Assembly (NCBI GenBank): GCA_002786855.1
Contig: PCUU01000026.1
Coordinates: 1-64,000 of the forward strand
Length of the DNA stretch: 64,000 nucleotides
Reading direction: 5' to 3'
Origin: Cytophagales bacterium CG12_big_fil_rev_8_21_14_0_65_40_12
GTDB taxonomy: Bacteria > Bacteroidota > Bacteroidia > Cytophagales > Cyclobacteriaceae
Shown here: positions 41,761 through 46,290 of the stretch, piece by piece
Numbering within the stretch: the first letter of the stretch is position 1
Layout of the letters: the number at the start of each line of letters is the position of its first letter
The notes under the pieces: generated by a model
What the model saw: the letters and a program-made list of their open reading frames with translations, nothing else
Told to the model about the DNA's origin: nothing
The model's database searches: none
Program-made: the position numbers and the translations under genes

Positions 41761-43035
41761 TCAGTTTGGAATCGTAAGTTGAATTGGATCAAGTATTTTT
41801 TCTGTCAAGCCATAGGCATCATATGTTTGATTTAGAAAACCAACGATTGAATAGCCTAGCTCTCTCGCCAAATTAACGGGAACAGCATTACCTATCTGTC
41901 TATACTGACTGGGAACCGAGCCAGCAAATTCCCATTCATCGGGAAAAGTTTGAATGCGGGCATATTCTCTAACCGTAAAAGGTCTAGTTTCATCGGGATG
42001 ACAACGTTCCGTTTGTTTTTGGGATGGACTACAGGTCAAGGTTAGACTTGGTTCATCCCAGCTAATTCTCCTTGCCATACCAGTTTTACCCCCTCCTAGG
42101 TAAAAACTCTTCTGCATGTACTCCTGTTGAATGTCAAGCGGTAAATCTCTCCAATATCCACCTGGAGGCACCATGTCTAAAATCTCTTTCTTTCTTTTTG
42201 GATAGGTCGGGCCTTTGGATTCAGGTACATCCGAATCGAACAGCTCCCCTTTTTTTAGGGCGTCTGCTAAATTGTAAATTTTCTTATGTGGTTTTGGGAA
42301 TGAAAAGTCAACATTAATATCCTTCCTGATACCAATCAAAATAAGCCTTTCCCTTTTTTGAGGAACTTTATAAAAAATGGCTTTAAGTACTTTAGGGTCA
42401 AGCGGTTTGTAACCGATTTCGTCTAGGATGGAAATCATCCCTTCCAAGGTCCTGCCTCCATCATGGTTCAAAAGGCCCTTTACATTTTCACCAACACAAA
42501 TCAATGGCTGGGTCTCTTGCACTACCCTGGCAAATTCATAAAACAAGGTTCCTCTAGCATCACTCAACCCTAATTTCTTACCAGCATAGCTAAATGCCTG
42601 ACATGGGAAACCACCAGTGACTACATCTACTTTGCCTTTATATTCTTCGAAACCAACATTTCGAATATCTTCCTCAATTACCCTCCAATTAGGTCGGTTT
42701 TTTCTCAACGTTTCTGCAGCCCAATGATCAATTTCATTTAAGCCGATGCAGTTCAATCCTGCTTTTTCTAATCCAATCGCTAAGCCACCCGCTCCTGCAA
42801 AAAGCTCCAAAACCGAGTATTTTCTTTCAGGCTTCATTTCATTACCTTTTTCTGAAGGGTTAAAGAGAAAACTGAGTTCATCGAAAATTTTAAGCTGCTC
42901 CTTTTTATACACTCGATAGTTGCTCATTGGTTCGCGCACTGCGCTGAGCTTTCCGCTTCTATCCCAATTCCTTAGGGTTTCCTTCGTCTTCCCTAACAAA
43001 TCTGCAACTTCTGAGAGTGTATAGTATTCTTTCAT
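41761..43035 (-). CDS. C5-cytosine DNA methyltransferase with N-terminal MerR-like HTH
   Basis: A DNA (cytosine-5) methyltransferase of 424 aa. An HTH of MerR type (about residues 4-50, LSEVADLLGKTKETLRNWDR) is fused in front of the catalytic domain. Motif I is LFAGAGGLAIGLEKAG, motif IV GGFPCQAFSYAG (catalytic Cys), motif VI ENVKGLL and motif X QIGNAVPVNLA. The track start is a TTG; ATG at 43035 fits better. An inverted repeat covers its promoter, so the HTH may repress its own gene. It is divergent from a Vsr-like nuclease. Target sequence unknown. Confidence 0.94.
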   Translation of the reverse strand: MKEYYTLSEVADLLGKTKETLRNWDRSGKLSAVREPMSNYRVYKKEQLKIFDELSFLFNPSEKGNEMKPERKYSVLELFAGAGGLAIGLEKAGLNCIGLNEIDHWAAETLRKNRPNWRVIEEDIRNVGFEEYKGKVDVVTGGFPCQAFSYAGKKLGLSDARGTLFYEFARVVQETQPLICVGENVKGLLNHDGGRTLEGMISILDEIGYKPLDPKVLKAIFYKVPQKRERLILIGIRKDINVDFSFPKPHKKIYNLADALKKGELFDSDVPESKGPTYPKRKKEILDMVPPGGYWRDLPLDIQQEYMQKSFYLGGGKTGMARRISWDEPSLTLTCSPSQKQTERCHPDETRPFTVREYARIQTFPDEWEFAGSVPSQYRQIGNAVPVNLARELGYSIVGFLNQTYDAYGLTEKILDPIQLTIPN

Positions 43036-43047
43036 AACCAATTACCA

Positions 43048-43117: not shown

Positions 43118-43603
43118 ATGTCCAAATTCTATTCCTCTGACAGAATAAAAGTACCTCGCTTTGAAGAATCAGCAGGCTTTTATACAACGGAGCAAAGAAG
43201 TGGCATGATGTCTAAAATCAGGGCCGAAAACACTAAACCTGAGCAGATGTTTCGAAAAGCACTTTGGGCATGCGGGGTTAGATATCGGCTGAATTCTAAA
43301 TCAATTCCCGGTAAGCCCGATATTTCAAATCAAAAACTGAAGTTCGTAGTGTTTATTGATGGAGAGTTCTGGCATGGCTACAATTGGGAAGAAAAGAAGC
43401 ACAAGATCAAATCCAACCGTGGGTTTTGGATCCCAAAGATTGAACGCAATATGCAGCGAGATCGAGAAATTAATAGGCTCTTAACCGCTGGAGGATTAAA
43501 GGTTTTTAGATTCTGGGAATCTGAGGTTAAGAAAGAGTTGGGCAGGTGTGTTAATGAAGTTTTACAGTTTATTCATCCGACATTTCCATACAACGACCAT
43601 TGA
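43118..43603 (+). CDS. Very short patch repair (Vsr)-like endonuclease
   Basis: A 161-aa nuclease of the Vsr fold, which nicks at T:G mismatches left by deamination of 5-methylcytosine. The N-terminal RSGMMSKIRAENTKPEQMFR, the PD-type active site KPDIS, FWHGYN and a C-terminal FRFWESEVKK follow the family order. The structural zinc ligands of E. coli Vsr appear absent (GCFWH is GEFWH; the HXC after it is YNW; WEC is WES). The neighbouring methyltransferase fits a repair role; a restriction role cannot be excluded. Confidence 0.88.
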   Translation: MSKFYSSDRIKVPRFEESAGFYTTEQRSGMMSKIRAENTKPEQMFRKALWACGVRYRLNSKSIPGKPDISNQKLKFVVFIDGEFWHGYNWEEKKHKIKSNRGFWIPKIERNMQRDREINRLLTAGGLKVFRFWESEVKKELGRCVNEVLQFIHPTFPYNDH

Positions 43604-43650: not shown

Positions 43651-44865
43651 TTATTTCAAAACTGAATTGACGATAAGTCCATGGCTAAGCGTTTTATGCA
43701 CTGGGCATTTGTCGGCAATTTGAAGAATTCGTTCTCTTTGTTCTTGCGTAAGATCACCCGTCAATTCGATTTCTCGATCAATAAACTCCATTTGGCCGCC
43801 TTCTGCCTCGCCTTTTCCTACATCTTCTGCGTATCGTTTTGCCCTGGTCAAATGTACTTTCACCTCGCTTAGGTCAATTTTTTTATGGTTGGCGTATAGC
43901 CTTATGGTCATAGCCGTGCAGGCGCCAAGTGCTGCGACCAAATAATCATAGGGCGTTCCTCCCAAATTTGTACCGCCAACATCTTCGGGTTCATCTGCCA
44001 CCATATAATGCCCATTGGCCATGATTTCGGACAAAAGCCCATGTTGTTTTTCGTTGCGCACCACCACTTGATGGTTCGTTCTCAACTCCTTCTTTTCAAC
44101 CTTCAAGTCAATATATCGAGTTGCCCAAGAGGCAATCACATCACCTACGTAAAGCGAGTCCTCCTTCTTTGATAACAAGTGATCTGCGCCATCTAATGAA
44201 ATGTAGCTTTTTGGATGATGGGCAGCCAAATAGATTTTTTCAGCATTCTTGATCCCTACCGTATCATCTTGCGGTGAATGAAGTATTAACAATGGTTTTC
44301 TGATTTCCCCAATAATTGAATTCAAACTATTCTTCTCAAGGTCATCTACAAATTGCTTTTTAATCGTAAAAGGTCTTCCTCCCAATGAGACCACCGCCTT
44401 CCCGTTGGCTTCAATTTCTTCCAAAGAGCTGTGAAAAAGTTTTTTTACATGGGGCGGATCGGCTGGGGCTCCAATAGTGACCACTGCCCTGAGCGATGGA
44501 ATTTCGGCTGCGGCCATCAGCACCGCTGCGCCCCCTAGCGAGTGGCCAATAATGATCTCGGGAGCTTGGTAATTTTGCTCCAAGTATTTGGCAGCTACCA
44601 CCAAATCTTGCACATTTCCAGAAAAATTAGTGTCGGCAAAATCTCCTTCGCTTTCTCCTAACCCAGTAAAATCGAAACGCAACACTGCAATTCCTTTTGC
44701 CGTCAGTGCGCGGCTGATGTTGGTAACCGCCAATAAATTTTTGGTACAAGTAAAGCAATGGGCAAAAATGGCGTAAGCAGTGGGCAGTTTGTCTACAGGA
44801 TGTTCGAGCCTTGCAGCTAACATGAGGCCTTCGGCATTTTCGAATTGAAGTTTTACGGTTTTCAT
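43651..44865 (-). CDS. Bifunctional alpha/beta hydrolase-OsmC protein
   Basis: A 404-aa fusion. Residues about 1-255 form an alpha/beta hydrolase with nucleophile elbow GHSLGG, acid in HSPQDDTVG and a late His (GADHLLSKK). Residues about 270-400 are an OsmC/Ohr peroxiredoxin-like domain with the family cysteines LGACTAMT and DKCPVHKT. OsmC proteins reduce organic hydroperoxides; the role of the hydrolase is not known. The fusion is a recognised architecture. It is monocistronic and divergent from the RNA candidate. Confidence 0.92.
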   Translation of the reverse strand: MKTVKLQFENAEGLMLAARLEHPVDKLPTAYAIFAHCFTCTKNLLAVTNISRALTAKGIAVLRFDFTGLGESEGDFADTNFSGNVQDLVVAAKYLEQNYQAPEIIIGHSLGGAAVLMAAAEIPSLRAVVTIGAPADPPHVKKLFHSSLEEIEANGKAVVSLGGRPFTIKKQFVDDLEKNSLNSIIGEIRKPLLILHSPQDDTVGIKNAEKIYLAAHHPKSYISLDGADHLLSKKEDSLYVGDVIASWATRYIDLKVEKKELRTNHQVVVRNEKQHGLLSEIMANGHYMVADEPEDVGGTNLGGTPYDYLVAALGACTAMTIRLYANHKKIDLSEVKVHLTRAKRYAEDVGKGEAEGGQMEFIDREIELTGDLTQEQRERILQIADKCPVHKTLSHGLIVNSVLK

Positions 44866-45024
44866 ATCTCTGGATTGAACTTCAATTTAACAATCATCAG
44901 CAAGAAATGAGTTCAAGAACTTTGAATGAAAAGGCATTTCTATACCATATGGGCTCAACAACCCAAAAAAGTATTTGAAACGTCAGATAAGCAACACCAA
45001 ATAACTTTTCTTGATTTTTTTCTT

Positions 45025-45190
45025 CTTCCAAATAAGGGTAGATCAAATCTCATTTGTTTCCTTTTTGATCTACCTATATTGTGATCGTTTGGAAGCAAAA
45101 TCTAGAAATGGAGGAGATTACTAGATTGAACAAAAGCATTTAAGCGTGATATAGATCGAGCATTATCTTAATTGGTAATGCTTTTTTTAT
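45025..45190 (+). ncRNA. Candidate structured RNA upstream of hemH
   Basis: Three nested or serial elements are visible. An outer stem CTTCCAAA/TTTGGAAG (45025-45032 with 45088-45095) encloses a perfect 11-bp stem GGTAGATCAAA/TTTGATCTACC (45037-45047 with 45064-45074). A second hairpin is AATCTAG/CTAGATT (45099-45105 with 45121-45127). A terminator ends the unit. No plus-strand gene precedes it. TAACTTTT (45002-45009) with TTTG at 44974 is a near-consensus promoter. It could be an independent sRNA or a terminating leader of hemH. Otherwise the 405-bp gap holds only the hemH promoter. Confidence 0.5.
45159..45189 (+). terminator. Intrinsic terminator before hemH
   Basis: AGCATTA/TAATGCT (45159-45165 with 45176-45182) can extend by one G-U and one C-G pair inwards, and a T8 run ends it (45182-45189). 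It lies 82 bp before the hemH ATG. Confidence 0.8.
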
Positions 45191-45232: not shown

Positions 45233-45240
45233 TATCTTTG
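45233..45240 (+). promoter_or_regulatory. Likely -7 box of hemH
   Basis: TATCTTTG matches TAnnTTTG exactly, 30 bp before the hemH ATG. No TTTG is found at the usual upstream spacing, so the promoter may be weak or need an activator. Its position after the terminator favours separate transcription of hemH. Confidence 0.5.
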
Positions 45241-45270: not shown

Positions 45271-46290
45271 ATGCGAAAAGAGAAAATTGGTGTTTTGTTG
45301 ATCAATCTAGGCACACCGGATAGTCCTTCCACAAAAGATGTAAGAAAATACCTTCGTCAATTCTTAATGGATGGCAGGGTGATTGACATACCGGCCTTTC
45401 CGAGGTATTTGCTGGTCAACGGGATAATTGCTCCGTTTAGGGCACCGAAATCGGCCAAGGAGTACGCGAAACTTTGGGTAGAACGTGGAAGTCCGTTAAA
45501 GTTCTATGGCTTCGATGTATGTGATGCACTTCAAAAATCACTTGGCGAAGATTACAAAGTTGTTTTAGGCATGCGCTATCAGAATCCAAGTATTGAATCT
45601 GCGCTGAACGAGCTTAGGAATGCCAACGTTTCTCGCATGATCGTTATTTCTCTTTTTCCTCAATACGCATCAGCGTCTACGGGTTCGGCTGTTCAAGAAG
45701 TGAATGACGTAGTCAACAAATGGCAAATTGTACCTTCGATCAATTATATCAATCAGTTTATGGACCATCCCAAATTCATTGAAGCTTTTGCAGCGAATGG
45801 ATTGAAGTTAATGGCAAAAACGGACTATGACCATGTGGTTTTCAGCTACCATGGTTTACCAGAGCGCCATATCAAGAAAGGATCAGTAGGAAACCAATGT
45901 CAATTGGGGGCATGCTGCAATCACTTTCATGAGAAAAACAGGTATTGTTATCGCGCTCAATGTTTTTATACCTCAAGATTATTGGCCGAAAAACTAGGTT
46001 TGTCAGAAGATCAGTATACGGTTTCTTTCCAATCTAGATTGGGCAAAGACCCTTGGGTACAGCCATACACGGATGAAATTTTGGCCGAACTTCCGAAACA
46101 AGGAAAGAAAAAAGTATTGGCCTACTCCCCCGCTTTTGTTGCAGACTGTTTGGAAACTACTGTTGAGGTTGGTGGACAGTTCAAAGAAGAATTTGAAGAA
46201 GCGGGTGGAGAAGTTTGGGACTTGGTGCCAAGCCTAAACGATTCTGAAATCTGGATTGAATGCCTTAAAGATTTGGTTGAGAATGGCTAA
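45271..46290 (+). CDS. hemH: Ferrochelatase HemH
   Basis: It inserts Fe2+ into protoporphyrin IX, the last step of protoheme synthesis, at the membrane surface. The opening GVLLINLGTPDSPS, the metal-site histidine in VVFSYHGLPERH and FQSRLGKDPWVQPYT are hallmarks. 339 aa is normal. GNQCQLGACCNHFHEKNRYC puts several cysteines in a row after the active-site His, which could hold a metal or Fe-S cluster (inference). Its stop overlaps the convergent lipoprotein gene by 4 bp. Confidence 0.96.
   Translation: MRKEKIGVLLINLGTPDSPSTKDVRKYLRQFLMDGRVIDIPAFPRYLLVNGIIAPFRAPKSAKEYAKLWVERGSPLKFYGFDVCDALQKSLGEDYKVVLGMRYQNPSIESALNELRNANVSRMIVISLFPQYASASTGSAVQEVNDVVNKWQIVPSINYINQFMDHPKFIEAFAANGLKLMAKTDYDHVVFSYHGLPERHIKKGSVGNQCQLGACCNHFHEKNRYCYRAQCFYTSRLLAEKLGLSEDQYTVSFQSRLGKDPWVQPYTDEILAELPKQGKKKVLAYSPAFVADCLETTVEVGGQFKEEFEEAGGEVWDLVPSLNDSEIWIECLKDLVENG

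Follow-up and report, generated by a model that had tools for sequence, protein, structure and literature searches.

A predicted small RNA of Roseivirga encoded upstream of hemH and the possible pairing of its hairpin loop with a second conserved small RNA

In the 64,000-nucleotide stretch of Roseivirga-type DNA analysed here (the window; contig PCUU01000026.1), a structured region sits between hemH, the ferrochelatase gene (45271-46290, plus strand; PF00762, E 1.7e-105), and a divergent gene for an alpha/beta hydrolase-OsmC fusion (43651-44865, minus strand; PF12146 and PF02566). The locus raises the question of whether this region encodes an independent small RNA (sRNA) or a terminating leader of hemH and, in the first case, what the RNA would act upon. 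The fusion gene encodes a single 404-aa protein. Beyond it lie a C5-cytosine methyltransferase with an N-terminal MerR-like helix-turn-helix domain (41761-43041, minus strand) and, divergent from it, a Vsr endonuclease with a DUF559 match (43118-43603, plus strand), which together form a Dcm/Vsr-type pair carrying a built-in regulator domain.

An earlier note on this DNA had described an elaborate nested structured unit without an open reading frame, ending in a T8 terminator and followed by a -7 box of hemH. It favoured an independent sRNA over a leader that responds to heme or iron, and proposed to look for covariation, for an Rfam family and for conservation upstream of hemH. The elements are all present in the sequence: an 8-bp stem (CTTCCAAA at 45025-45032 with TTTGGAAG at 45088-45095), an 11-bp stem (GGTAGATCAAA at 45037-45047 with TTTGATCTACC at 45064-45074), a 7-bp hairpin (AATCTAG at 45099-45105 with CTAGATT at 45121-45127) and a terminator stem (45159-45182), followed by a run of seven, not eight, T residues at 45182-45188. 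The hemH -7 box, TATCTTTG (45233-45240, plus strand), marks a separate hemH promoter. No open reading frame of annotated size occurs in the region, but short mechanical ones of 47-52 aa run across it. As a single strand, the region folds better than its dinucleotide shuffles do, 1 in 200 being equally good (z -2.59), and one terminator-like site was found against 0.8 expected.

The comparison covered 19 genomes of the marine genus Roseivirga, G000 being that of the window. Conservation upstream of hemH is indeed found: 15 of the 19 keep the same order of parts. TAAGGGT is followed after about 15 nt by TTGTT and after some 12 nt more by CTACC. Next come an AT-rich stretch and a stem whose two halves enclose a hairpin with the loop GGAGGAAATTA (a loop that has diverged in G004, G006 and G014); ATAGATC, a Rho-independent terminator and the hemH -7 box complete the series. 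The predicted small RNA, RNA1, has a length of about 105 nt (approximately 45080-45188, plus strand, the start being approximate) and has homologues in 17 of the 19 genomes. The closing stem P1 pairs CGTTTG (45086-45091) with TAAGCG (45141-45146) and encloses the 7-bp hairpin, P2, with the loop AAATGGAGGAGATTA (45106-45120), whose core GGAGGARATTA is kept in most of the genus. P1 is linked to the terminator by ATAGATC (45151-45157), present or near-identical in most members. The terminator as a whole (45159-45188) was recognised by a terminator scan; hemH-linked homologues carry at this position a hairpin of different sequence with a T-rich tail.

The remaining genomes differ in the placement of RNA1. 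The distance from the unit to the downstream hemH is 5.3 kb in G007 and 7.2 kb in G009, and in G014 about 0.2 kb extra separates the two. No RNA1 is recognisable in G018 (R. pacifica), and G017 has a decayed copy only. In G007 (L218, 396-1502 and 1927-3021), the stop codon of a carboxymuconolactone-decarboxylase-family gene marks the start of RNA1, with an Rrf2 regulator ahead of that gene; after RNA1, the opposite strand carries a long open reading frame of FNQDIGxWDVSxVTxMxxMF-type repeats. Outside the genus, no convincing match was obtained among 198 family genomes (a few of which are genus members); the best matches were partial and scattered, with E about 0.003. By these searches, RNA1 is confined to Roseivirga and is not recognisable in other genera of the family.

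Structural conservation was evaluated by a swap test, in which the 5' and 3' arms of each stem were exchanged between 12 lineages within windows chosen without fitting to pairs. A hand alignment was used together with this test because a simple MAFFT alignment misplaces the stems. P1 had a mean of -10.9 kcal/mol with its own arms and -8.0 with swapped arms (p 3e-4), and P2 of -6.9 and -3.8 (p < 5e-5), the P2 windows being 12 nt on each side of the loop, with a placement that depends on where the hand alignment sets the limits of the loop. In the hand alignment, 93% of the cells are paired in P1, with 19 extra pair types, and 86% in P2, with 13; the swap test is the safer number, since this alignment was fitted to the stems. 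Both stems therefore covary, P1 having been overlooked in the earlier note. The half-sites AAGGGT and CTACC, on the other hand, reached -7.7 with their own arms and -7.1 when swapped (p 0.14), which rules out the nested 8- and 11-bp stems as conserved structure. Only the window sequence has the strong inverted repeat that they form; G012 has a weaker counterpart. What exceeds chance by conservation is the 7-bp hairpin, the closing stem P1 and the terminator.

Since the half-sites do not covary, the nested stems belong to a block whose spacing is kept, AAGGGT-N-TTGTT-N-CTACC. In the window it occupies 45033-45077 (plus strand), with TAAGGGT at 45033-45039, TTTGTTT at 45053-45059 and CTACC at 45070-45074. 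The distance from AAGGG to CTACC is 34-36 in all 15 hemH-linked copies, and the motif order is also kept in both relocated copies (G007 and G009). The nested unit is thus mostly promoter-region sequence rather than conserved RNA structure, and the block probably acts as a promoter or operator. It is unlike the textbook TTTG/TAnnTTTG promoter, and a scan with the sigma-70 consensus found no promoter. A pattern search in the genus returned, besides RNA1, scattered matches without RNA1-like sequence after them.

The upstream block, the terminator, the separate hemH -7 box, the covariation and the 5-7 kb between RNA1 and hemH in two genomes all argue for the independent sRNA preferred in the earlier note. 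Taken by itself, the reading of RNA1 as an independent trans-acting sRNA is very probable. The Rfam search returned no family above the gathering threshold and sub-threshold noise at relaxed thresholds, and no riboswitch or aptamer matched.

A candidate partner came from a genome-wide search. The loop 20-mer of the window matches an equivalent site in 10 related genomes, located in the intergenic region between fbaA, for class II fructose-bisphosphate aldolase, and the gene of a LacI-type regulator, which is followed by a GH31-like gene. The site would belong to a second conserved small RNA, RNA2, of textbook sRNA layout. Read towards fbaA, it comprises a -7-like box (TACTTTGG), a 5' hairpin, a near-invariant stretch of 31 nt (GTAATTTCCTCCATTTCTATTATAGTTTACTT; the seed) for which a mostly unpaired state is predicted, a terminator hairpin and TTTTA. 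The terminator hairpin varies in sequence and keeps its pairing (ACTTATAGCGCAA/TTGCGCTATAAGT, ACTTAAAGCGCT/AGCGCTTTAAGT, ATGTATAGCGCAA/TTGCGCTATACAT). A reading of the locus on the strand of RNA1, as a paralogue of it, was rejected: terminator tail, 5' hairpin and -7-like box are all oriented towards fbaA. The locus lies at L140:2442-2836, with equivalents in L149-L160, L175-L186 and L188. Just upstream of the LacI-family regulator (L149-L161) are TGCAAACGTTTG-like palindromes, a probable autoregulatory operator of this gene.

A covariance model detected RNA2 in 13 of the 19 genus genomes and gave no hit below E 0.1 outside the genus among 149 family genomes. Six genomes, the window included, have RNA1 without detected RNA2; conversely, RNA2 is present and RNA1 missing in G018, and in G017 RNA2 accompanies the decayed RNA1. 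The fbaA gene is present in 18 of the 19 genomes, and neither fbaA nor RNA2 was found in the assembly of the window genome, which may reflect loss or an assembly gap. The pfkA neighbourhood of the window genome resembles that of G014. The fbaA-linked RNA2 is missing from G014, G006 and G004, and pfkA of G014 has another neighbour.

The P2 loop of RNA1 (GGAGGAAAUUACUG) is complementary to the invariant single-stranded seed of RNA2. In the window, the 20-nt stretch TAGAAATGGAGGAGATTACT (45103-45122, plus strand) is complementary, with one G.U, to the seed of other Roseivirga species, and none of 2000 shuffles gave a run as long (G.U allowed). Complementary runs of 14-16 (G.U allowed) occur in 8 of the 11 species with both RNAs (G002, G012, G016, G001, G013, G003, G007 and G009), and shorter ones in G008 (11), G015 (8 to 10, interrupted) and G010 (8). 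In 10 of the 11 species the duplex energy is better than that of about 95% or more of the shuffled RNA1 sequences, and in 9 the figure is at least 97%. Where a species has both RNAs, some changes in the loop core keep pairing through G.U; others, mostly at the first position, break it. Where RNA2 is missing, the loop complementarity is gone from G014, G006 and G004, and a 9-nt match is kept in G005 and G011. The window genome has no detected RNA2, yet its loop is the best match of all; RNA2 may fall in an assembly gap, or the loop may have further partners.

Because the partner emerged from a genome-wide search, the match has to be discounted for the search space: the single-genome E of the 20-nt match is about 0.17, and therefore this match alone means nothing. 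Coincidence is nonetheless unlikely, since the matched site lies within the unpaired, invariant portion of a different conserved sRNA; a rough after-the-fact estimate places the chance at the order of 1 in 1000. Given an independent sRNA, pairing of its loop with the RNA2 seed is reasonably probable.

The best explanation as a whole, to which we give slightly better than even chances, is that RNA1 is a trans-acting sRNA that pairs with RNA2 and sequesters or destabilises it. The genus-specific promoter block would drive the transcription of RNA1, separately from hemH. The stems P1 and P2 would then present the purine-rich loop GGAGGAAAUUA(CUG), and the Rho-independent terminator would end the RNA ahead of the separate hemH promoter. 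The loop would base-pair with CAGUAAUUUCCUCC, the invariant seed of RNA2, which is unstructured and would be transcribed upstream of fbaA, and the mRNA targets of RNA2 would be freed. The sequence itself shows structure, covariation, conservation, terminators and complementarity; transcription, the direction of regulation and the sponge role are what we infer, the sponge or antagonist outcome being suggested by Campylobacter analogues (PMC10470494, PMC8687705). More tentatively, and with rather less than an even chance, RNA1 (by heme synthesis) and RNA2 (by the glycolytic fbaA and the LacI/GH31-like sugar locus) may form a conserved two-sRNA circuit that couples two metabolic branches through sponging of RNA2, in which the loop drifts once the RNA2 locus is lost. 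Nothing but the proximity of hemH points to heme or iron, and the relocated copies lend this no support.

The strongest competitor, which we still consider unlikely, also holds RNA1 to be trans-acting and places its targets among mRNAs or with another partner, so that the match to RNA2 would be a coincidence of purine- and pyrimidine-rich conserved motifs. It would account for the GGAGGA loop kept in the window genome and in G005 and G011, where no RNA2 was found, and it agrees with the absence of compensatory changes between loop and seed, the RNA2 seed being invariant. Against it, the complementarity of 14-16 positions seen in 8 of the 11 species involves the most conserved part of both RNAs. 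An RNA1 sequence profile run on whole genomes moreover placed the strand opposite RNA2 first among its non-RNA1 matches in 7 of the 13 genomes with RNA2; these matches are not independent, because RNA2 is nearly identical in all. The 13-mer has no other conserved site, its remaining matches being coding-like and at unrelated places.

The other possibility raised at the outset, that hemH is preceded by a terminating 5' leader (attenuator) controlled by heme or iron, is very unlikely. RNA1 and hemH are adjacent and on the same strand in 15 genomes, with the terminator between them. However, a leader must stay attached to hemH, and this attachment is lost in G007 and G009, which makes RNA1 most probably an independent sRNA, and stretched in G014. 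The -7 box stands upstream of hemH in 19 of 19 genomes (with small variants in G016 and G008), including those without an adjacent RNA1 and even G018, which lacks RNA1, and G017, with its decayed copy. Nor does any aptamer family match.

Very unlikely, too, is a ribosome-directed RNA whose GGAGG-like loop mimics a Shine-Dalgarno sequence and binds the free anti-Shine-Dalgarno of 16S rRNA. According to PMC6847099, Bacteroidetes mRNAs lack Shine-Dalgarno sequences while the ribosomes retain the anti-Shine-Dalgarno. Nevertheless, CGAGG, TGAGG or AGAGG replace GGAGG in several species, and the conserved motif reaches AAATTACTG, which an anti-Shine-Dalgarno leaves unexplained. The contiguous match to what we take to be the 16S 3' end is only 5-10 nt, against 14-16 for RNA2. 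Finally, the GGA within the hairpin loop could suggest a decoy for a CsrA-type protein, as in CsrB/RsmZ-like titration, which is most improbable because CsrA (PF02599) is absent from 19 of 19 genomes and was found in three control genomes.

The proposed pairing of RNA1 and RNA2 resembles that of CjNC140 and CjNC110 of Campylobacter jejuni (PMC10470494), likewise two sRNAs, in which a CU-rich stretch of one binds a GA-rich hairpin of the other; the sequences and the phylum are unrelated, and gel shifts prove there what is a prediction here. In CJnc180/CJnc190 (PMC8687705), an sRNA targeting G-rich sites is similarly opposed by a second, complementary RNA, but CJnc180 is cis-encoded, antisense to its partner, whereas RNA1 and RNA2 are at unlinked loci. 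GibS (PMC7366714) and Rfp18 (PMC9723704) are intergenic sRNAs from the same phylum as RNA1; unlike them, RNA1 has no Rfam family and is confined to Roseivirga. Bacteroides is described as having no obvious Hfq or ProQ homologues (PMC7366714, PMC9723704). A literature search found no paper on a Roseivirga sRNA. RNA1 is new in having no Rfam family, and the kind to which it belongs, that of intergenic sRNAs, is known; it may be one partner in a pair of interacting sRNAs.

The sRNA biology of Bacteroidota is poorly mapped, and the classical chaperones are missing or unclear. To our knowledge, most of the described sRNA-sRNA interactions come from Proteobacteria, Campylobacter and Firmicutes, and few from elsewhere. 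A pair of predicted RNAs of defined structure, found across the genus and with a concrete predicted pairing site, would provide an experimental handle on how sRNAs find their partners in Bacteroidota.
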